Below are positions 7,010 to 32,292 of a stretch of DNA of 32,335 bases, piece after piece (position 1 is the stretch's first letter; every line of letters starts with the position of its first letter). Source of the DNA: Bryobacterales bacterium. GTDB taxonomy: Bacteria > Acidobacteriota > Terriglobia > Bryobacterales > Bryobacteraceae. The notes below the pieces were generated by a model. It was given only the letters and a program-made list of their open reading frames with translations. It ran no database searches and was not told where the DNA came from. Both the position numbers and the translations under genes were made by a program. The stretch lies in NCBI GenBank assembly GCA_003152325.1, contig PLZX01000336.1, forward strand, positions 13,177-45,511, given 5' to 3'.

Positions 7010-7328
7010 CACATACAGTACAGAACCTGGACCGTTGGGAAATAGGGTACTATAATAGGCCGAGTTTGCCGCTATTTCAAGGGCGGGCGCTTTACCCGCT
7101 CGTCTTCGGCTTGAGCTATTGCAGCGTCCAGTGTTCGAGCTTGACCGCCCAAGCGGACTGCGAAGGGCGCCGAAGTCCGCGCGGCGGTGAAGAAAACCTC
7201 GTGGCCAGAGCCAACAAGTGACCTTCACGCTCAATTCGGAGGACATCCCGGCGTCGAAGTTGGAGATCAGCGTCGGCGGGACAATCACAGGGAACAACGC
7301 GCATGTACAAGGTTACGCTGTAGTGTGA
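7010..7328 (+). pseudogene. Decayed C-terminal remnant of a GH3 glycoside hydrolase
   Basis: One frame reads YYNRPSLPLFQGRALYPLVFGLSYCSVQCSSLTAQADCEG, alignable to YNMTNRTYRYYQGTPLYPFGYGLSYSKFEYSNLKLSAD of the intact GH3 at 8823..11726. After a frameshift, QVTFTLNSEDIPASKLEISVGGTITGNNAHVQGYAVV* (7216-7328) matches the GH3 FnIII-like C-terminus (HVRFTLNPRDL...VFVGGG). The left boundary is approximate. Confidence 0.75.
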
Positions 7329-11865: not shown

Positions 11866-12603
11866 ATGCACCGAACGATTCGCAATAACGGTTGTCTCGC
11901 GATGATCGCGGCTTGGTCGCTGGCGTTGCTCACCATGCCAGCCGCCAAAGCCCAGATGTTCTCCTGGACCAAGGAAGAGATGGTCGAATACACCAAAGCC
12001 TGGACGGGCGAACGCTTCCCCGACGGGCGGCCCAAAGTTCCAGACAGTTGGCTCGAACGCGCCAAGGGAATGTCACAGGAAGAAGTGATCATTCCGGGCT
12101 GCCGAGGCGGCGGCCCGGCAAACATCTCCAGCTACACCCAGTACGATGGAAATTTCAGGGTGTTGCACCCGGAACTGAAGATGGCCGGCCGGGTGGTGAC
12201 GGCAATGTACATGCCGACTCGCGCCGATATCGATACCATCCTTTTCGCCAAGGCTCGCGACAAGGGTGTTGCCCTGACGAACCAGTGGCCGATCGACCAA
12301 TTGCAGGCCGGGGACGTCCTTGTGATCGATCTCTATGGCAAGGTGGAGAGCGGCGGCATCATCGGCGACAACCTTTACTACTACATCATGAAGGCGACGA
12401 AGGGCGGCGGCCTGGTGATCAACGGATCCATACGCGATCTGGAAGGTATCAGCGAAATCAGGCTGCCGGCATACGTCCGCACCCTCACGCCGACATGGTT
12501 CGGCGGATCGACCCTATACGGCTACAACGTGCCCGTGCGTATGGGTAATGTGGTGGTGATGCCGCGGCCACCATGTGGCGGCGATACGCCGAGGCGGACC
12601 TGA
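11866..12603 (+). CDS. RraA/HMG-aldolase-family protein with signal peptide; C-terminus truncated and replaced by out-of-frame sequence
   Basis: LQAGDVLVIDLYGKVESGGIIGDNLYYYIMKATKGGGLVINGSIRDLEGI is the RraA core. The usual GDVVxGDxxGVxxIPP C-terminus is missing after VRMGNVVVMP, where the ORF ends RPPCGGDTPRRT*. Confidence 0.8.
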   Translation: MHRTIRNNGCLAMIAAWSLALLTMPAAKAQMFSWTKEEMVEYTKAWTGERFPDGRPKVPDSWLERAKGMSQEEVIIPGCRGGGPANISSYTQYDGNFRVLHPELKMAGRVVTAMYMPTRADIDTILFAKARDKGVALTNQWPIDQLQAGDVLVIDLYGKVESGGIIGDNLYYYIMKATKGGGLVINGSIRDLEGISEIRLPAYVRTLTPTWFGGSTLYGYNVPVRMGNVVVMPRPPCGGDTPRRT

Positions 12604-12812
12604 TGATCGCTGGCGAGGTACGCGAATGGGAGAACACATATTACGCCGCCGACATCTTCAGCGCAGGCGAGAAGCGCGGACTGGTGACGGTCGGCCGCGT
12701 GGTTTCGGAAGATCCCGGAATGCGCGCGTGTGCCGCCTGGTTGAAAGCAGTGGTGAAGGAAGTGCCGGCGCAATGGATCAGCGCCGGCGACCTCTATTGG
12801 AGGGCGATCTGA
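12573..12812 (+). pseudogene. C-terminal fragment of a NIF3-like protein
   Basis: AEADLMIAGEVREWENTYYAADIFSAGEKRGLVTVGRVVSEDPGMRACAAWLKAVVKEVPAQWISAGDLYW aligns to the C-terminus of the intact NIF3-like protein downstream (DTDVVIGGEQQEADGGFDNVEYVADAASLGIPKGLVMLGHVVSEQPGMEDFAKFLQTFIKGVPIEFVPAEEPFW). Confidence 0.8.
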
Positions 12813-19496: not shown

Positions 19497-22400
19497 ATGG
19501 AAGGCAACCGAATAGGGCGTCTTGTGTGCGCCAGTGCACTAATGTGCGGCTGCGTTTTCGGCCAGTCAACAACTGGCACTTTGCAGGGGACAGTGTTGGA
19601 CCCCGCCGGCGCGGCCGTGCCGAATGCAACCATCGTAATTAAAGATCCGAGTGCCGGTACAACTCGCAATGCCGTGTCCGGAACGGACGGGATCTTTATA
19701 TTAAACGGCGTCGAACCAGGTACATACAATTTGACGGTTACCGCCAAGGCCGGTTTCAAGACCTACTCTCTGGAGGCCATCGCCCTCTCGCCGAATGAGC
19801 GGCGCGATTTGGGCAAGATCGCGCTGACGATCGGATCGCTGACCGAGGAAGTTTCGGTCATCGCTACCAGCACGCCCATACAGACGTCTTCCGGCGAGAA
19901 CTCGAAGCTGATCGAGGCTGCCCAATTGAACAACATCACCATTAAGGGCCGTGATCTGTTCGAAATCCTGCAGACCGTTCCCGGCGTAACCTTTGGCAAC
20001 GCTCTGCTTTTTGGCAACGCCGCCGATGCTACCAGTAACGGGAGCAGCACTTTTGGCAGTCTGCAGATCAATGGCGGCGGTACCGCGCGCACCAACTTCG
20101 TCGTCGATGGCGTGCCGGACGTGGACAACGGCAATAACTCCCAGGTAGACTTCGAGCCCACCATGGACACCATCGCCGAGATCCGCGTGCTGACGTCCAA
20201 CTACCAGGCGGAGTTCGGCCACAGTTCCGGCGGCCAGATCAGTCTGATCACCAAGGGCGGCAGCAACTCATTCCACGGCAGCGCTTTCTACAACAAGCGG
20301 CATGAGATGTTTAATGCCAAAGACTATTTCACCAACTTGAACGGCAACCAGAAGACGATTTCCCGCTTCGGGGTATACGGCTTTACCATTGGCGGGCCGG
20401 TCTACATTCCCAAAGTCTGGAACGTGAACAAGAACAAGGTGTTCTTCTTCTTCTCCCAGGAATATACGAAGACGAAGCCGGCTAGCACCACGCAAGAGGC
20501 AATGGTGCCTACGGCAGCTCAGTTGCAGGGCAACTTCTATGACCGCTGCCTCGTCAACACCGGCGTAAACGGCGTTCCCTGCACGCCGGGTTACACCGAC
20601 AACAACGGGAATGACAGGAGCACCTTCCTGGTGAATCCGGCCGCCGGCAAGACTACGCTGGCTGGTGGTAATTTGAACACACTGATTGGTACCTCGGCCT
20701 ACAATTCGGCTTCTGCGGCCATTGGCCAGGCGATGCTGAAGTACCTCCCCTCGCCGAACCTCTGCACCGCGGCCGCCGGCATCTACAACGGCAATGCGAT
20801 CAGCCCCACGAATTGCCCCGCTGGCTTCTCCAACCACGCCATCTCGAATCCCTCGTGGAACTACGGCTTCAACTACATCTGGTCGGCCAACGAGGTCCAC
20901 CCGCGGCGCAACGACACGGCACGTATCGATTGGAACATCAACCAGAAAAATCGGCTGTTTGCCCGTTACTCGCAGGACTACGACGCCGACTTGACGAATT
21001 TTGGCATCCCAGTGAGAGATACCTCCGGCAACTATGCTCCAACCGCCGCGAACTTCACCAAGCCGGGCCACGGATACGCGATCGGCCTCACGACCACTCT
21101 CTCCGCAACCATGGTGAACGAGTTCACTTTTGGGAAGATTTTCAACGGAATCGGCTATTACGAGGCGAATGATAACCAAGTCCAACGGTCGAACATGGGC
21201 AATCCCCCCTCGTTCGATAATTTCGCCACCGATCCGCTGTTCAACAACACCGGAAAGCGGTGGTTGGCCGGCACCGGCCCGCTGAACTTCGCCGATTACG
21301 TCCCCACCGTCTCCTTTGGCGACTCTGCCAACCGCACCGAGACTGCCCCATCCACCAACCCCTGCTGGAATGGGTGTCCCTATACCAACAAGGCCGATTC
21401 GTGGACTTTCGCCGACAGTCTCACCAGGGTTGTGGGCAAGCACAACCTGAAGGCGGGCATTTACGTCGAGCGCACCTTCAAGGTGCAGGACGGCAGCCAA
21501 GGTAATTACCTGGGCGCCTATACCTTCGGCAACGACTCGACCGGACAGAACCCCCTCGACACGCAGGATGGCTTTGCCAATGCCTGGTTGGGCAACTACC
21601 GGCAATACTCGGAAGGCCAAAAGAACATCGGAGACTGGAAGTTCTGGCAGGTGGAGTTTTACGTGCAGGATTCCTGGCGCGTCAGCCCCCGCCTAACTCT
21701 CGATGTCGGCCTCCGCTTCTACGGCATGCCTCCGATTACCAACGTGGGCACCGGCCGGAACGCTTCGACGGAATTCGTCGCGTCCGCCTATAACCAAAAC
21801 CTGGCGGAGCGGCTCTACATTGGGGAGTGCGTCAACCCCACCACTAATGCGATCATTTCGACCGCCGGTGGTCCCTGTCCCAGCACCGCAACAACCAAGG
21901 CCTACGATCCAGTTAGCAATACCTTTGCCCTTGGGTCGTTAGTCGGAACGTTCGTTCCCAATTCGGTAGCCAACTATCCGTCTGGGGCGACTCCGTTCCC
22001 GGGTATGGTCATTGCCGGCACCAGTGCGGCGCTGCCCCAGAGCCTGTACACCGTGCCGCTCATTTCTCCGGCGGGCCGTCTCGGCTTCGCTTGGGACGTG
22101 TTCGGCAACGGCAAGACGGCCATTCGCGGCGGTATCGGTCAATTCCTGAACCGGCTCAGCTACAACCAAATCGCCAGCCCGGTTTCGTTCCAGCCCACTC
22201 TGCAAAGTCTGAACCTGTACAACGGAAACATCACCAATATCACGTCGGGCGCATCGTCGCTCGGCGCCGTTTCGCCGATTGGTATGAACGCCGATTTCGT
22301 GGGACACCAGCAAAACGAATCCACGTACAACGGTAGCCTGCAAGTTCAGCAAAAAGTAGGCTTCTCCACGGTGGTGGAGGCGTCCTGGGTGTTCGAACTG

Positions 22401-23600
22401 CGCCGCCACGTGCCGCTCAACTATCCGCTGGATTACTTCCCGCTCTACTCGCAGTTCAATAACGGCGCTGCCTGGGTGAATCCTACGACAGCGTACTTCC
22501 AAAACAATGCGCTGACGGGGTATACAGGTGGGAACAGCGGTCTGGGGCTGCTCGGCAACCAATACATCTTCAATTCGAGCGTGTGCCCCACCTGCGTCTC
22601 CGGTTATCCCTCCATCTCCGCCCAACAGTTCGAGGGGACCTCGAACTACGAGGCCTTGCAGGTCAACGTGCGGCGTAACATGACGAGGCGCCTTTCCTAC
22701 GGATTTGCTTTTACGTGGAACAAGTCAATGGGACCGTCGGGAGCTCTCCTCAACAACAATGACCCGGGCTTCACCCGCGACCCCCTCTTGCCGGACAAGT
22801 TCCGCAACTGGGGACCGTCCTACGCGAACACGCCGTTTTACTTTACGATCAACTCGGTGTACGAGATTCCGGGCCTCGGAGAGAAGCTGAACTTCAAACC
22901 GCTGGGTTGGGTTACCGATCACTGGGTCCTTTCCGGACTGTACCAGTGGCGCAGCGACCAGATGTCGTCGATACCTACCCCCACCTTCGCCAATACCAGC
23001 AACACCTGCTCCACCTCTACTAACTGCTACCCGCAGTGGAACTGGACAGGCACGCCTAACGACAACTACAGGGCGGTCGTCACCGGTGACTACCACCTGT
23101 CAAGCATCGGGGGGACCTTGCAGATCAACCCCGCTGCCAGCACGACGGGCACGCAGTCCGGCAGCCCGGCTACCTCGAGCTACCCCCTGAACGGAAACCC
23201 TGGCAACCAGATCATCAACACGGCGGCCTTCACCATTCCGTTCCCGTGCAGCCAGACACCTCAGGCCGACCCGCACTACGGCGTGGGCGAGAACCTGTCC
23301 TGCCTGGGCAACGCAGGTATCGGTCAGCTCCTCAACATCCCCGGCACCCGCGTCAGCAACCTGGATCTGACCATCACGAAGAATATCCCGCTGGGGAAAG
23401 AGGGACGCAGTCTCCAATTCCGCGCGGAGGCGTACAATCTCCCGAACCACACTCAGTTCTCTGCGTACAACATCACACCGTCGTACGACTGGCGGAACTG
23501 GCTGCAGGGCCGGCTGGTCCAGACCAACGCCAGTCTGAACCGTTTTACACAAACGCTGAACCCCCGGCAGATGGAGATGTCGCTGCGGCTGGTGTTCTGA
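19497..23600 (+). CDS. Oar-like TonB-dependent receptor with N-terminal carboxypeptidase-regulatory-like domain
   Basis: GTLQGTVLDPAGAAVPNATIVIKDPSAGTTRNAVSGTDGIFILNGVEPGTYNLTVTAKAGFKT; plug INGGGTARTNFVVDGVPDVDNGNNSQVDFEPTMDTIAEIRVLTSNYQAEFGHSSGGQISLITKGGSNSFHGSAF; terminal F of MSLRLVF; GGAGG at 19486. Confidence 0.95.
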   Translation: MEGNRIGRLVCASALMCGCVFGQSTTGTLQGTVLDPAGAAVPNATIVIKDPSAGTTRNAVSGTDGIFILNGVEPGTYNLTVTAKAGFKTYSLEAIALSPNERRDLGKIALTIGSLTEEVSVIATSTPIQTSSGENSKLIEAAQLNNITIKGRDLFEILQTVPGVTFGNALLFGNAADATSNGSSTFGSLQINGGGTARTNFVVDGVPDVDNGNNSQVDFEPTMDTIAEIRVLTSNYQAEFGHSSGGQISLITKGGSNSFHGSAFYNKRHEMFNAKDYFTNLNGNQKTISRFGVYGFTIGGPVYIPKVWNVNKNKVFFFFSQEYTKTKPASTTQEAMVPTAAQLQGNFYDRCLVNTGVNGVPCTPGYTDNNGNDRSTFLVNPAAGKTTLAGGNLNTLIGTSAYNSASAAIGQAMLKYLPSPNLCTAAAGIYNGNAISPTNCPAGFSNHAISNPSWNYGFNYIWSANEVHPRRNDTARIDWNINQKNRLFARYSQDYDADLTNFGIPVRDTSGNYAPTAANFTKPGHGYAIGLTTTLSATMVNEFTFGKIFNGIGYYEANDNQVQRSNMGNPPSFDNFATDPLFNNTGKRWLAGTGPLNFADYVPTVSFGDSANRTETAPSTNPCWNGCPYTNKADSWTFADSLTRVVGKHNLKAGIYVERTFKVQDGSQGNYLGAYTFGNDSTGQNPLDTQDGFANAWLGNYRQYSEGQKNIGDWKFWQVEFYVQDSWRVSPRLTLDVGLRFYGMPPITNVGTGRNASTEFVASAYNQNLAERLYIGECVNPTTNAIISTAGGPCPSTATTKAYDPVSNTFALGSLVGTFVPNSVANYPSGATPFPGMVIAGTSAALPQSLYTVPLISPAGRLGFAWDVFGNGKTAIRGGIGQFLNRLSYNQIASPVSFQPTLQSLNLYNGNITNITSGASSLGAVSPIGMNADFVGHQQNESTYNGSLQVQQKVGFSTVVEASWVFELRRHVPLNYPLDYFPLYSQFNNGAAWVNPTTAYFQNNALTGYTGGNSGLGLLGNQYIFNSSVCPTCVSGYPSISAQQFEGTSNYEALQVNVRRNMTRRLSYGFAFTWNKSMGPSGALLNNNDPGFTRDPLLPDKFRNWGPSYANTPFYFTINSVYEIPGLGEKLNFKPLGWVTDHWVLSGLYQWRSDQMSSIPTPTFANTSNTCSTSTNCYPQWNWTGTPNDNYRAVVTGDYHLSSIGGTLQINPAASTTGTQSGSPATSSYPLNGNPGNQIINTAAFTIPFPCSQTPQADPHYGVGENLSCLGNAGIGQLLNIPGTRVSNLDLTITKNIPLGKEGRSLQFRAEAYNLPNHTQFSAYNITPSYDWRNWLQGRLVQTNASLNRFTQTLNPRQMEMSLRLVF

Positions 23601-23725: not shown

Positions 23726-26332
23726 TCACTCAAGCGTGAAAGCCAGTCTGTGTCCCGTGTACTGCACGTGTTTGTCTTTCGATGGGCTGGTTCCTGCCAG
23801 ATGGATTGCGAACTGGCGTTTGGCGATCATGCCGGGATACGCACCTTTTCGGTCGCCGATCGAAAGTGTGTGCACCTGGTCATTCCAGCGTAAAGAGATG
23901 GTCGAACGTACGCCCTTCTCGTAGGCGTAGTTCACGCCTTCATCTTCGTACAGCGTGAAGTCCGCGTCCGCTCCGGGATAAACGCGCCACTCGATCTCTC
24001 CGGTTCGATCCTGACCGGAATACTGCTGAACCGGTCCTAGCGGGACAATGCTGCCCGCCCTCACCATCAGGGGAATTTTCGCGATCGGGGCATCCGTTGC
24101 TGTCGTCTTTCCGCCGGCCACCTTGGCCTCTGTCCACCAATCGAACCAGCCGCCCGGGGTAGACGGTGCGTACACCGGCCACTGCCGCGGCTCGGGCTGC
24201 AACACGGGCGCTACCAGGAACGCCGGACCGAACATGAATTCGTACTTCTGCGCCAGAGCCTGCTCGTCGTCCCGGAAATCCATCACAAGAGGACGCATCA
24301 GAGTGGAACCGCGGAAGGTGATTTCGGCCGCCTGGCTGTATATGTAAGGCAGCAGCCGGTAGCGCATCTCGAGATACTGGCGTTCCTGGGCCTCAACGGC
24401 GGCGCCGAAATGCCAGGGCTCCGTCTTGGTCTGGAAGCCGTGGACGCGCATCAACGGCGTAAACGTGGAGAACTGCAGCCAGCGCAGGAAGCGCTCGTGG
24501 TACGCGCTGTCGGTGTACTGCCTTTCACCCGGACGGAAGAAACCGCCAGTATCGGTGGTCCAGTAGGGGAGTCCTGTGACGGAGAAATTCAAGCCAGCCG
24601 CGACCTGGCGGCGGAGAGTCTCCCAGTCGTTGCCGATATCGCCCGACCATGTTGCGACAGCATAGCGCTGCGCACCCGCGAAGGCGCTCCGCGTCAGGAC
24701 GAAAACCCGCCGATCAGGTGCGTCTTTGCGCTGTCCTTCATAGATGGTCTTGGTGACGAGCAACGGATAGACCAGACGGAAACGATCTCCGGGACCGGCG
24801 AAGGTCTTCTGGCCGGCGAGAGCGTCGTTCTCCGGTTCGGTGGCGTCCTGCCACCAGGCGTCGATCCCGAGAGACAGCATGCGGCTGGAGAAATGCTTCC
24901 AGTACAGCGCACTTGCCTCGGGATTGAAGAAGTCCACCCACTGGGTTCCGGGCAGAAACAGATCTCTTGCGGCAAACTCCTGGCCTACCGTCGATTTCGG
25001 ATCGATCTTCGACCAGACGGACACCATGAACTTGGCATTCAGGTCGTGTAGCTGGCGCACCAGGGCTGCCGGATCGGGGTAGTTGGCCTCGTCCCACTGC
25101 ATGGCGTTCCAGCCATACTTGCCCCAGTATTGCCAGTCCTGAACGATCACGTCCATGGGAAGCTTGCGCTTGCGGAATTCACGGGCGTTTTCGAGAATGT
25201 CGTCGCTCGATGTGTACCGCTCGCGGCACTGGATGAAGCCATATGCCCAGAGAGGCAGCAACGGGGCCTGACCCGTCAGTTTGCGATATGTCGCGATGAT
25301 CTCGTCGGCGGTGGGGCCTGCAAAGACCACGTAGTCGATGCCGTCCGAGACGGGCGAGCGCAGCACGGTTTCGGCGGCGGACGGTCTCCAATAGAGTGAC
25401 GGCTGGTCTCTCATGTTGCCTTCGACGCGCACCTGGTGCTTCCCGGGTTTCAGCTCCAGGAACCAGCTCGAGGTTGGAGGCAGCCAGCGGTTTGCGAAAT
25501 CGACCACGGTGCCGCCATCGATCTCGACGTGGTAGCGTTGGGCCATTTCCTGGCCCACGTCCAGCATCATCGCGTAGCGTCCGGGCGCGGCGGTTTCAAA
25601 ATCGCCGCGGAACACTCCCGCAGTGCGGCTCACGGTACGGGCGCCCTCGGCGGTGGTCACGGCGGCAGTGGTGGTATTGCCGGAAGCTTCGCGGGCCAGC
25701 GTCAGGTGCTCATCGGCGGGATTGAGGTTGGTCAGCCCGTAATTGTGCCAGAGCAGCCCGTAACCCTTGCTCGATAGCAGAAATGGGATGGAAATCTGGC
25801 TGTTGACCTGAGTGAGGCGCCGGGGAAGGTCGCGAATGTCCAGAAATCCATCCTGAAACTGGCCGGAGCCGAAGATGTGCTCATCGGCGGGTGAGCGGAA
25901 CCGGTCCTCCGCGGTGAGTGTGGGTTGTCCCTGAATTCTCGATGGACGCACACGGCGCGAACCGGGCAACTCTTCCAGGAGGAGTCTCCCCTTCGCATCG
26001 GAAAACCGCAGCGTTCCCGTCTTTTGATCGTAGGTTGCCGTCAGCCGGGAGGTAGCGAGAGTGACGGACACCGCGGTTTTTCGAATGGATTGGCGGACAT
26101 CGCTAGCGGGATGGATCAGCACCAGGCTTGTCGAGTCTGCCGCCTGGGCAGGAGTGCACCGGACGCGCAGCGCGCCGTCGGCAATCGGGACCACAGAGAG
26201 GACCCCGCAGTCGGCCTTGATCGAGACACCAGGTTGTGCGGAGGCCTGCTGGGCTTGGGCGGCATATACGCTGAAAGGGGACAGCACCGCGACCAGGAGA
26301 AATCCATGTCTCGGGAGATACGATTTTGACAC
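23726..26332 (-). CDS. GH31 alpha-xylosidase/alpha-glucosidase with PA14-like insert, secreted
   Basis: LPLWAYGFIQCRERYTSSDDILENAREFRKRKLPMDVIVQDWQYW, nucleophile region WWQDATEPEND, acid/base region WSGDIGNDWETLRRQVAAGLNFSVTGLPYWTTDTGGFF, PA14-like AGVFRGDFETAAPGRYAMMLDVG. The GTG at 26332 (VSKSYLPRHGFLLVAVLSPFSVYAAQA) follows GAGGTG; the longer 5' ORF extension is not protein-like. Confidence 0.9.
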   Translation of the reverse strand: MSKSYLPRHGFLLVAVLSPFSVYAAQAQQASAQPGVSIKADCGVLSVVPIADGALRVRCTPAQAADSTSLVLIHPASDVRQSIRKTAVSVTLATSRLTATYDQKTGTLRFSDAKGRLLLEELPGSRRVRPSRIQGQPTLTAEDRFRSPADEHIFGSGQFQDGFLDIRDLPRRLTQVNSQISIPFLLSSKGYGLLWHNYGLTNLNPADEHLTLAREASGNTTTAAVTTAEGARTVSRTAGVFRGDFETAAPGRYAMMLDVGQEMAQRYHVEIDGGTVVDFANRWLPPTSSWFLELKPGKHQVRVEGNMRDQPSLYWRPSAAETVLRSPVSDGIDYVVFAGPTADEIIATYRKLTGQAPLLPLWAYGFIQCRERYTSSDDILENAREFRKRKLPMDVIVQDWQYWGKYGWNAMQWDEANYPDPAALVRQLHDLNAKFMVSVWSKIDPKSTVGQEFAARDLFLPGTQWVDFFNPEASALYWKHFSSRMLSLGIDAWWQDATEPENDALAGQKTFAGPGDRFRLVYPLLVTKTIYEGQRKDAPDRRVFVLTRSAFAGAQRYAVATWSGDIGNDWETLRRQVAAGLNFSVTGLPYWTTDTGGFFRPGERQYTDSAYHERFLRWLQFSTFTPLMRVHGFQTKTEPWHFGAAVEAQERQYLEMRYRLLPYIYSQAAEITFRGSTLMRPLVMDFRDDEQALAQKYEFMFGPAFLVAPVLQPEPRQWPVYAPSTPGGWFDWWTEAKVAGGKTTATDAPIAKIPLMVRAGSIVPLGPVQQYSGQDRTGEIEWRVYPGADADFTLYEDEGVNYAYEKGVRSTISLRWNDQVHTLSIGDRKGAYPGMIAKRQFAIHLAGTSPSKDKHVQYTGHRLAFTLE

Positions 26333-26373: not shown

Positions 26374-27369
26374 TCATGCGACGGACACCTGATTGACCCA
26401 ATCGAGCGGCTGGTGGTGGCCCAGTTTCAGGTGGAAGGTCACCGGCCTGTTCTCCGGCAAGTGCACATCGATGTCGGCCTTGCCGACCCGGAGTGCGGCC
26501 GCCAGGACGCCCGCAGGAGCGGTGATGGCTTCGATTCCGTACCGCGCTATCAGAGTGACGTCCTGCTTTCTCACCGAGGTGACCGTCAGATCGACGGTAC
26601 GGGCGTCCATGTCCCTTGCCAGTCTGTCGATCCGCGCGAAGGTCCGAGCAAGCATCCCGTGAATCGATCCCTTTACAAGCTTGGAAGGAAGGGCGGGCAG
26701 CACCTCCATGACACCAGGGCGTGAGTAGGCCAGCATTTCCATGATGATCGTGGGAATTCCGCCCAGCGCATCCGGCACAGGCGGGCCATAAGGCTCGCGC
26801 GAACACCGGAGCGCGGTGCTCACGTAGCCCTGCTCCATCAACTGCCGCCGTTGGACGTCCACGATGACGTTGTCTTTGAGCCGAGCCCCGACCAGCGCGC
26901 GATGGCAGCGACCATAAGCAGGCAAAGTCTCGCCCGCGACCGCGGTGGCTAACGCATCAACCGTGCGCCTTCGGCCGGCGATCTCAGCGGCTCGAGCCAG
27001 TTGCGGCGTGCGATCGGGATCGATTTCATCGGCCGGCCAAGCCCCATCCGGCCAAGGCCCATAGAGAGGGGACACGTGCCGATGGGTGTAATGCTCTTGC
27101 AGCGTAGGCCAAGCCCATTCCTTCAGGGTGCCGTCCGGTTCGAGCAGGTAGGGTGGCATCTTGGCCAGCATCGCCTTCCGTTTCGGCACGGGGCCGCTGT
27201 TTTGCTTCTGCAGCACCTTTTCTTCGAGCGTCATGCGGGACACCAGGTCTGCCGCGCGCCGCTCCGGAGTCAGGGTCAGATCCTGGTAAGGAGCGTTACC
27301 TGGCTGTTGTGCGAATGAAGCCAGGCCAATGAGCAATAACGACGCAATTGTAGGCCGGTTGGGTCTCAC
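26374..27369 (-). pseudogene. Chimeric ORF: GH3 N-terminus (signal peptide + first ~35 residues) joined to a GH95-like C-terminal fragment
   Basis: N-term APYQDLTLTPERRAADLVSRMTLEEKVLQKQN is a GH3 start; from ~residue 63, KRKAMLAKMPPYLLEPDGTLKEWAWP...YTHRHVSPLYGPWP...DEIDPDRTPQLARAA...EMLAYSRPGVMEVLPALPSKLVKGSIHGMLAR is GH95-like. Total 331 aa, far short of either family. Confidence 0.75.
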
Positions 27370-27410
27370 TTCGAAATCTCCTGTCTCGCTTCGAAAGGTC
27401 CTGCCGTTCC

Positions 27411-29705
27411 TCAGGGTAGCTTTACGCGAACCTCTTTGCCAGAGTAGGCCACTGGCCGCGCACCAGCGGAATCATCCAAGCCGCCTCCTGGCTGCTGATC
27501 CACGAGCACAACCCGGAAGGTCCGCCTCTGCAACATCCCAGCATAGTTGCCCGCGCGCTTGCCGATGGTGAGCGTCTTGGCCGCATCGTTCCAGTGGAAC
27601 GGAATGGTCGCATAGGCGCCGTGTTCGTAGTCGTAGGATTCGCCGGCGTCTTCGTAGAGGGTGAACGAGCCGTTCGCGCCCGGATAGACGCGCACCTCGA
27701 GCGGATCGGCCGGCTTCTGATCGACGTACTCGACGTCCGGTCCGAGCGGAAGAATCGAACCAGCCGGAACGTACAACGGCATGGAGTCGATGGAGGCGGC
27801 GGCCTCCACGCGCCCACCCGCCGATTCCTTCTTGCCCGTCCAGAAGTCGAACCATGGAGCCTTGCCCGGCAGATAGACGGGGCGTGAGGAGGCCCCCGCC
27901 GTCGTCACGGGATTGACCATCAGATCCGGGCCGAACAGATACTGGTCGGCGACATTGAGCGCATTCTTGTCTCCCGCGAAATCCATCACCAGCGGGCGCA
28001 ACATGGAACCGCCCTTATCGGTCACCTGCCAGGACATGGAGTAGATGTACGGAATCAGGCGGTAACGCAGCCGTTCGAACTTCAACATGGTCCGCTGCGT
28101 AGGCTCGTCCCACTGCCAGAATTCCTTGCCGGAGCCGCTGCCATGCACGCGGAACATGGGAGTGAAAGCTCCGAACTGGAACCAGCGCACGAACAACTCC
28201 TGATACTTCGGGTCTTTCGTATTCCCGCCGAAGAACCCGCCGATATCGGTGTTCCAATAGGGAATGCCACTCAGCGAAAAGTTTAGGCCGGCCGGAATCT
28301 GCTTGCGGAACACGTCCCAGTTGCCCTGGATGTCGCCGGACCAGGAGATGGCCGAATTGCGCTGCTGTCCGGCATAGGCTGAGCGGGTGAGGACGATGAC
28401 GCGTTTCTTGTCCGTCTGCGCGCGCTGCCCCTGGTAGATGCCCGTAGTGGTCATAAGGGGATAGGCGTTGAAGACCGTCGCGGCGGATCCTTCGGCGGTA
28501 GTAAACGTGCGATACTCGCCCCATTTTCCGCCGATCTCTGGCTCCGTGGCATCCAGCCACCAGCCGTCCATACCCATCGTGCCTAGGCGTTCCCAAATCT
28601 GCTTCCAGTAGAGGCGGCGGCCTTCTGGATTGAAGGCGTCGTACCACTTGCCTTGGCCCCTCGGGTAGACATTCGGAATCACGGCAGGGTAGAGCGCACC
28701 GGCCTGCTCCAGTTCCTTCTCGTTAGCCGTGTCGAGGTCGAAGCGCGACCATACCGAAATCAGAATGTGCGCGTTCATTTCATGGATGGAGTCCACCATC
28801 CCCTTGGGATCCGGATAACGGGCCGGATCGAACTCGTGGGAACCCCAGCCACCGGGCGCCCAGTATTGCCAATCCTGCACAATGCCGTCGAGCGGCCTGT
28901 GGGTCTCGCGGTATCGCGAGACAATCCCCAGCATTTCCGCCTGACTGGCATACCGCTCCTTGCACTGCCAGAAGCCCCAAGCCCATTTGCCCAGCAGGGG
29001 CGCCGCGCCAGTCAGCTGGCGGTATCCGGCGATCACGTCGTCCGACTTGGGACCGAAAATGAAGTAGTAATCGATCGCCTTGCCGGTCTCGGAAACCCAA
29101 CGCAACAGGCCTTCGTTGCCTTTGACTCCAACCTCCACATCGGTAATCGACGGATTGTCCCACAGCATGCCGTAGCCACGGCTGGAAACAAGCACCGGAA
29201 TGCCGATCTCCATGTTTTTCTGCTGGAGGTGAACCGAGGTTCCGCGATAGCTCATGAATCCAGCCTGGTGCTGGCCCAAGCCGTAGATCTGTTCCTCAGG
29301 GTCGAGGACGAAGCTGTCACCGACGGACGATTCGCGGGGCCCTTTCTCCTCGAAAATCGTCTTGCCGGCCAAGTCGCGGAACGAAACAAGGCCGGTGCCT
29401 CTATCGACTACCGCGCGCAGCGCGCGCGTGGAGAGTTCGACGGCAGCCGGCGTCTCTTTGAATTGGAAGGGTATGGCGGCGGGCGAAGAGATCACACTCA
29501 GGCTGTGAGTGACCGGAATGGCCGAACCCGGGGCGTAGGAAACCCTCACAACCCGGTCGGACCAGACTTCAAGGCGAAGCGTTCCAGCGTCGAATCGTAT
29601 CAGGGCGCCGTGCGCCTGCTTCTCCACTGCGGGAGGCGCTGCGCCAGAGGACGGAGTGGCGACCGCAAGTGCGGTCAGGATGAGGACCTGCCAACAAGAA
29701 TTCAC
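27411..29705 (-). CDS. GH31 alpha-xylosidase/alpha-glucosidase, secreted
   Basis: GKWAWGFWQCKERYASQAEMLGIVSRYRETHRPLDGIVQDWQYW, WWLDATEPEIGG, SWSGDIQGNWDVFRKQIPAGLNFSLSGIPYWNTDIGGFFGG. GTG start preceded by AGGAGG. Confidence 0.93.
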   Translation of the reverse strand: MNSCWQVLILTALAVATPSSGAAPPAVEKQAHGALIRFDAGTLRLEVWSDRVVRVSYAPGSAIPVTHSLSVISSPAAIPFQFKETPAAVELSTRALRAVVDRGTGLVSFRDLAGKTIFEEKGPRESSVGDSFVLDPEEQIYGLGQHQAGFMSYRGTSVHLQQKNMEIGIPVLVSSRGYGMLWDNPSITDVEVGVKGNEGLLRWVSETGKAIDYYFIFGPKSDDVIAGYRQLTGAAPLLGKWAWGFWQCKERYASQAEMLGIVSRYRETHRPLDGIVQDWQYWAPGGWGSHEFDPARYPDPKGMVDSIHEMNAHILISVWSRFDLDTANEKELEQAGALYPAVIPNVYPRGQGKWYDAFNPEGRRLYWKQIWERLGTMGMDGWWLDATEPEIGGKWGEYRTFTTAEGSAATVFNAYPLMTTTGIYQGQRAQTDKKRVIVLTRSAYAGQQRNSAISWSGDIQGNWDVFRKQIPAGLNFSLSGIPYWNTDIGGFFGGNTKDPKYQELFVRWFQFGAFTPMFRVHGSGSGKEFWQWDEPTQRTMLKFERLRYRLIPYIYSMSWQVTDKGGSMLRPLVMDFAGDKNALNVADQYLFGPDLMVNPVTTAGASSRPVYLPGKAPWFDFWTGKKESAGGRVEAAASIDSMPLYVPAGSILPLGPDVEYVDQKPADPLEVRVYPGANGSFTLYEDAGESYDYEHGAYATIPFHWNDAAKTLTIGKRAGNYAGMLQRRTFRVVLVDQQPGGGLDDSAGARPVAYSGKEVRVKLP

Positions 29706-31251: not shown

Positions 31252-32292
31252 CTATTTGAAGATGCGCTGGCTAAAGAGGTACAGGTTGTTGTCCCACTCG
31301 GTGTTGTCGTGGGCATTTCCATCCACGTGCCAGACGTGCGGGACGCCGTTCTCCTTGAGATAGCCGTGGACCGCCTGGCTGATGCGTATCAGGTTGTCCT
31401 TGTTCCCACAGGCCAGCCAAATCAGCTTCAACTGCTTGGGAACCGCCGGATCGGGCACGAGTGCGGACGGAGGCTCCTTGGTGTCCGGGGCTGACGAGAA
31501 CCCACCGACCCAGGCGAACGTCTCGGGGTGAACCAGACCGATGTTCAAGGTCTGGCCGCCCCCCATCGAGAGACCCGCCAGGCCGCGATGATCGCGGTCG
31601 GTGTACACGGAATAGTGAGCATCGACGTAGGGGATGATGTCTTTGAGCAGGTCGCTCTCGAAGGGCGTCAGCCACGGGTCCATTCCCATCCTGCCGCCCC
31701 CGCCGCGTCCGGCTCCGGCTCCTGCCCCGCCGCCCCCAGCCGCCAGGTCGGCCGCCGACCTGGATGAATTGCCGTCGGGGAAGACTAAGACCATCGGCTG
31801 AATCTTGCTCTCGGCCAGGAGGTTGTCGATGATGATATTCGCGTGGCACGCTTCCGTCCACTCGGTGTCGGTGCCGCCGATGCCGTGCAGCAGATAGAGC
31901 ACCGGGTACTTGCGATTCGTCGAGTAGGCCGGCGGCGTGTAGACGCGCATCCGGCGGCGCGTTCCGAGCGACTTGGAGTCGTACTCAACGGGCGTGAGCT
32001 CGCCGTGAGGGACGTCTTCACGCCGTGCGTTGAACCCGGATGGCGGATCAGGAAAAGCAGGCTTGTCATCCGGGCCCAACTCAATCGGTCCGCCGAAGCT
32101 GCCTCTGCCTCTGCCGGCGACCTGTGGGGCCGCTGCGCCGCGCGCCGCCGCATCCTGGACAGCCGCAAGCAATGTGGGGGCCACCTGCCTCACGCCGGCC
32201 TTGGAGTCGCTCGAAGTCCTATCGGTCTGAGCCAGACACGTCCCAACAACCAACGTCACCGTGAATAATACAAAGAACAGAGCTCGTTTCAT
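31252..32292 (-). CDS. CE1-like secreted esterase with Gly/Ala-rich insert
   Basis: Signal peptide; [54 protein letters not shown]; low-complexity LAAGGGGAGAGAGRGGGGRMGMDPW; SD AAGGAGA upstream. Confidence 0.92.
   Translation of the reverse strand: MKRALFFVLFTVTLVVGTCLAQTDRTSSDSKAGVRQVAPTLLAAVQDAAARGAAAPQVAGRGRGSFGGPIELGPDDKPAFPDPPSGFNARREDVPHGELTPVEYDSKSLGTRRRMRVYTPPAYSTNRKYPVLYLLHGIGGTDTEWTEACHANIIIDNLLAESKIQPMVLVFPDGNSSRSAADLAAGGGGAGAGAGRGGGGRMGMDPWLTPFESDLLKDIIPYVDAHYSVYTDRDHRGLAGLSMGGGQTLNIGLVHPETFAWVGGFSSAPDTKEPPSALVPDPAVPKQLKLIWLACGNKDNLIRISQAVHGYLKENGVPHVWHVDGNAHDNTEWDNNLYLFSQRIFK

Follow-up and report, generated by a model that had tools for sequence, protein, structure and literature searches.

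Does an open reading frame that begins as one glycoside hydrolase and ends as another encode a new secreted protein, a gene in the course of being lost, or an error of assembly? The question is raised by a frame on the minus strand of the 32,335-nucleotide stretch of DNA from a soil-type Bryobacterales bacterium that was analysed here (the window; all positions without a locus number refer to it), which starts with the secretion signal of a GH3 enzyme and finishes with the C-terminus of a GH95 enzyme. The frame lies between two GH31 genes, and the window also encodes, by Pfam assignment, an arabinofuranosidase, GH43, an acetyl xylan esterase, GH3 and esterases, such that as a whole it looks like a plant-polysaccharide cluster (Table 1). 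Elsewhere in the window, at 11866-12800, the beginning of a NIF3-like ORF is overlapped by an RraA-like ORF; the initial ~75 residues of the NIF3-like product appear to be in the wrong frame, and a frameshift near 12560-12600 is possible.

Table 1. Positions of the chimeric ORF, its component parts and neighbouring features in the window.
Feature	Position	Strand	Description and basis
Chimeric ORF	26374-27369	minus	331 codons; GTG start at 27369, TGA stop at 26376-26374, zero internal stops
Ribosome-binding-like sequence	27370-27385	minus	AGGAGAT, just 5' of the GTG start; direct sequence reading
GH3-derived 5' part	27190-27369	minus	Signal peptide and first ~60 residues, TPERRAADLVSRMTLEEKVLQKQNSGP; protein identity and DNA alignment
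Deletion junction	27189-27190	minus	Parents overlap by 2 bp, CG; nucleotide alignment
GH95-derived 3' part	26374-27188	minus	Last ~155 barrel-profile positions and C-terminal beta domain
In-frame tandem duplication, about 15 bp	27034-27066 (approximate)	minus	LYGPWPDGAWPADEI versus LYGAWPGDEI in relatives; 27-sequence alignment and DNA
Upstream neighbour, GH31 enzyme	27411-29705	minus	Frame intact; Pfam
Downstream neighbour, GH31 enzyme	23726-26332	minus	Frame intact; 41 bp past the chimera stop; Pfam, start codon from sequence
Large receptor-like protein	19497-23600		Named from sequence alone, without a family search
GH3 C-terminal relic	7058-7313		Broken frames; flanked by the genes for GH43 and acetyl xylan esterase

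The original prediction of a frame that runs from GTG to TGA through 331 codons without a stop was borne out, and because none of 5000 dinucleotide-preserving shuffles of this frame remained open, its openness is not due to chance. A split comparison of the two halves likewise confirmed the proposed fusion of a GH3 secretion signal to a GH95-like C-terminus. Residues 1-60 correspond to GH3 N-termini, with 73-74% identity to residues 1-60 of the 864-aa GH3 of L057, and residues about 61-331 correspond to the GH95 C-terminus, with 82-83% identity to the GH95 proteins of L064 and L007 (about 905 aa) and 77-78% identity to several further GH95 proteins. The GH95 part aligns with residues 651-905 of the L064 protein (82% identity), and it amounts to the C-terminal third of such an enzyme. 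The junction falls within the range of ~27175-27210 in which the switch had been placed, and its two sides, CCCCG from the GH3 parent and CGTGCCGAAA from the GH95 parent, have only CG in common.

The shortness of this overlap bears directly on the explanation that two genuine genes were wrongly joined in a draft genome. The assembly is indeed a draft, in 388 contigs, 82% complete and with 5% contamination, and the chimera is present in a single genome, but short-read misjoins normally require that the two sides share a k-mer of at least about 20 bp, and since the parents overlap by only 2 bp, far below that length, a misjoin is unlikely. There is also no N gap at the junction, the frame is kept, and the lost GH3 and GH95 pieces are on no other contig: in the same assembly the GH3 body is absent at orthologous identity, the nearest GH3 being 63% identical, as are the N-terminal 650 residues of the GH95, the only other GH95 being 31% identical. 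An assembly error is thus an unlikely source of the chimera, to which we give little weight.

A second chimera was not found among relatives. No single protein in 237 genomes of the family matched both halves, and a probe of 91 residues with the junction at its centre gave 0 crossing matches in 257 genomes of the order, where its matches end by residue 57 or begin at residue 44 or later. The possibility allowed for at the outset, that homologs with the same N-terminus are widespread and form a genuine family, is rejected on the absence of any junction-spanning match from these 257 genomes, and the reading as a fusion stands. In many genomes of relatives the two halves are separate genes, as a fusion by deletion would have it, and the usual gene order is GH95a-GH95b-GH3 (L058, L060 and L036). 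In L057 and L067 the GH3 gene is followed by a GH95 gene on the same strand with a gap of 15-18 bp, an order that is a plausible substrate for a simple deletion; the GH95 that adjoins GH3 in these two loci is of another subtype than that of the chimera, without the TFDALATAVAGETLPAY stretch. A GH3-GH95b arrangement, which would be the exact state before the deletion, was seen in none of the relatives compared. A search of relatives for this state by synteny of the two flanking GH31 genes gave near orthologues of the upstream one (80-82%) in genomes G044 and G045, and no GH3 or GH95 lies beside them. Literature searches returned nothing on the chimera locus. Pairs of GH95a-GH95b genes were also observed in L034, L037, L041 and L044, from records titled Sedimentisphaerales, Phycisphaerae and Bacteroidetes, with GH95b proteins 68-79% identical to the GH95 part of the chimera; that such pairs occur in records assigned to phyla other than this one is suggestive of horizontal transfer or of mis-binning.

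In the mechanism that we propose, an illegitimate deletion of several kb would have brought GH3 codon ~60 up against codon ~650 in a GH95 gene that lay downstream. Judging from gene lengths in relatives, at least about 4.4 kb would have been removed if the GH3 and GH95 genes were adjacent, and about 7 kb if there was another GH95 gene between them. The frame would have been kept by luck; a random deletion leaves the frame open with a one-in-three chance, so that a kept frame is in itself unremarkable. The resulting product of 331 residues would be translatable, probably exported and catalytically dead, although the deletion event, the loss of function and the expression are all three what we infer from the DNA. 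Deletion-fusion pseudogenes are known from bacteria, and the chimera resembles them in that two genes meet with minimal homology after the DNA between them has been lost, but differs in that its frame happens to be open.

What was left of the two parent enzymes was assessed by domain content. The GH3 domains PF00933 and PF01915, both of which are found in the L057 GH3, gave zero Pfam matches in the chimera, and the entire GH3 catalytic domain is missing from it; the chimera is like PA14-containing GH3 enzymes in its first ~60 residues and signal peptide, and unlike them in having no GH3 Pfam domain. On the GH95 side, the match to Glyco_hydro_95_cat (PF22124) covers profile positions 252-407 of 408 (E 1.7e-12), which is an incomplete domain, compared with 105-408 in the best stretch of a full-length GH95 relative, and the match to Glyco_hydro_95_C (PF21307; E 4.8e-5, 24.2 bits) is under the curated cut-off of 27.6, compared with 27.9 bits for the full-length relative. 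The junction cuts through the (alpha/alpha)6 barrel itself instead of falling between domains, so that the last ~155 of the 408 profile positions are kept. More than 60% of the catalytic domain is missing, and with it both the NxN motif and the SPE motif that holds the inferred general acid. The AfcA enzyme has Glu566 as its general acid together with the paired Asn421/Asn423 (PMC11943901). By motif, SPE and NxN would be the counterparts of these residues, and when the full-length relative is aligned with 2RDY and 7ZNZ, both NxN and the glutamate of SPE are located upstream of the cut; the counterpart of AfcA Asp766 seems still to be present in the chimera, in VPDALGG. In comparison with GH95, the alpha-1,2-L-fucosidase family (BH0842, 2RDY; FucOB, 7ZNZ; AfcA, 2EAB), residues 61-331 align to the barrel end and C-terminal domain of a GH95-like subfamily, but the N-terminal domain is lacking in addition to most of the barrel and the two motifs. 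AlphaFold, given a GH95-only alignment of 12 sequences (a mixed GH3 and GH95 alignment was dropped), returned a block with pLDDT of about 60-87 at residues 221-320 and values below 50 for nearly all other residues, with a mean of 47 from this shallow alignment, and the confidently predicted part is limited to the C-terminal beta domain. The predicted product lacks the active site of either parent and, judged by the residues that it retains, cannot be an active GH95.

The comparison of dN/dS with relatives that had been proposed for this ORF was made by a distance-based method, using triplet distances of dN and dS and eight outgroups. Terminal-branch dN/dS for the GH95 part was about 0.14-0.25, like the 0.11-0.22 of the intact sister L007, with wide and overlapping bootstrap ranges. 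This resemblance to the sister suggests that most of the terminal branch evolved under constraint and that the deletion is probably recent, though the dN/dS fits either a recent deletion or a constraint that partly persists. Against 24 relatives, the GH95 part departs four times from a residue that is otherwise invariant, by W3R, G52A, I161M and W192R (alignment numbering), such that radical changes at conserved positions include W-to-R twice, and the chimera has HRHxSP where the relatives have HRHxSH. Four such changes are not exceptional when compared with L007 (4, of which two come from its contig end) and L041 (5 and 8), and as L007 equally has four, the count alone is not decisive. Taken together, the 15-bp duplication and the conserved-residue changes suggest that decay of the chimera has begun.

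These data also bear on the explanation that the chimera is a neofunctionalised secreted protein, in which the beta domain from the GH95 C-terminus, exported by means of the GH3 signal, would now bind glycans or serve in some other non-catalytic way. Such a protein would agree with the open frame, in which no stop or frameshift interrupts the 331 codons, with the signal-peptide-like start and the ribosome-binding-like sequence, with the low branch dN/dS, and with a C-terminal beta domain modelled at pLDDT of about 60-87, but about 155 residues of broken barrel still precede that domain, the fusion is shared with no relative among the 257 genomes of the order, and the dN/dS mixes pre- and post-deletion time. 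We consider this origin improbable, and likewise the reading that selection maintains the fusion because it yields a secreted protein without catalysis, based on the C-terminal domain of GH95; if true, the latter would represent a new non-enzymatic use for a GH95 fragment. Of the two fates offered by the original prediction, a gene that is dying or a domain that has been neofunctionalised, the first is favoured by the cut barrel, the lost catalytic residues, the low-confidence model, and the radical changes together with the duplication, and the second was left without positive support. The chimera is very probably a recent in-frame deletion-fusion pseudogene, catalytically dead and in early decay.

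The other scars that had been suspected in the window are at least partly real, in that a broken GH3 relic is present (Table 1). In genome G001, a GH3 gene (L066:1069-2272) has internal deletions that remove residues of about 308-614 and 671-822, with the first join in frame, and GH95 C-terminal tails that stand alone, with no other part of the gene, are found at L065:2752-2922 (G001) and L070:6306-6452 (G002). From these relics and that of the window, loss by internal deletion thus appears to recur for GH3 and GH95 genes in Bryobacteraceae. The L066 GH3 adjoins a LacI-type gene and an esterase that is 59% identical to the product of the window gene at 31252-32292. In a separate observation, at L057:12731-15371, a GH95 directly after a GH3 has its frame broken in at least two places.

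Beyond the snapshot of gene loss and the caution for annotation that it provides, the chimera is ordinary. It captures an early stage in the loss of genes from a plant-polysaccharide cluster of Bryobacteraceae, and it warns that in annotation this ORF will be labelled a secreted GH95 though it is unable to be an active one.
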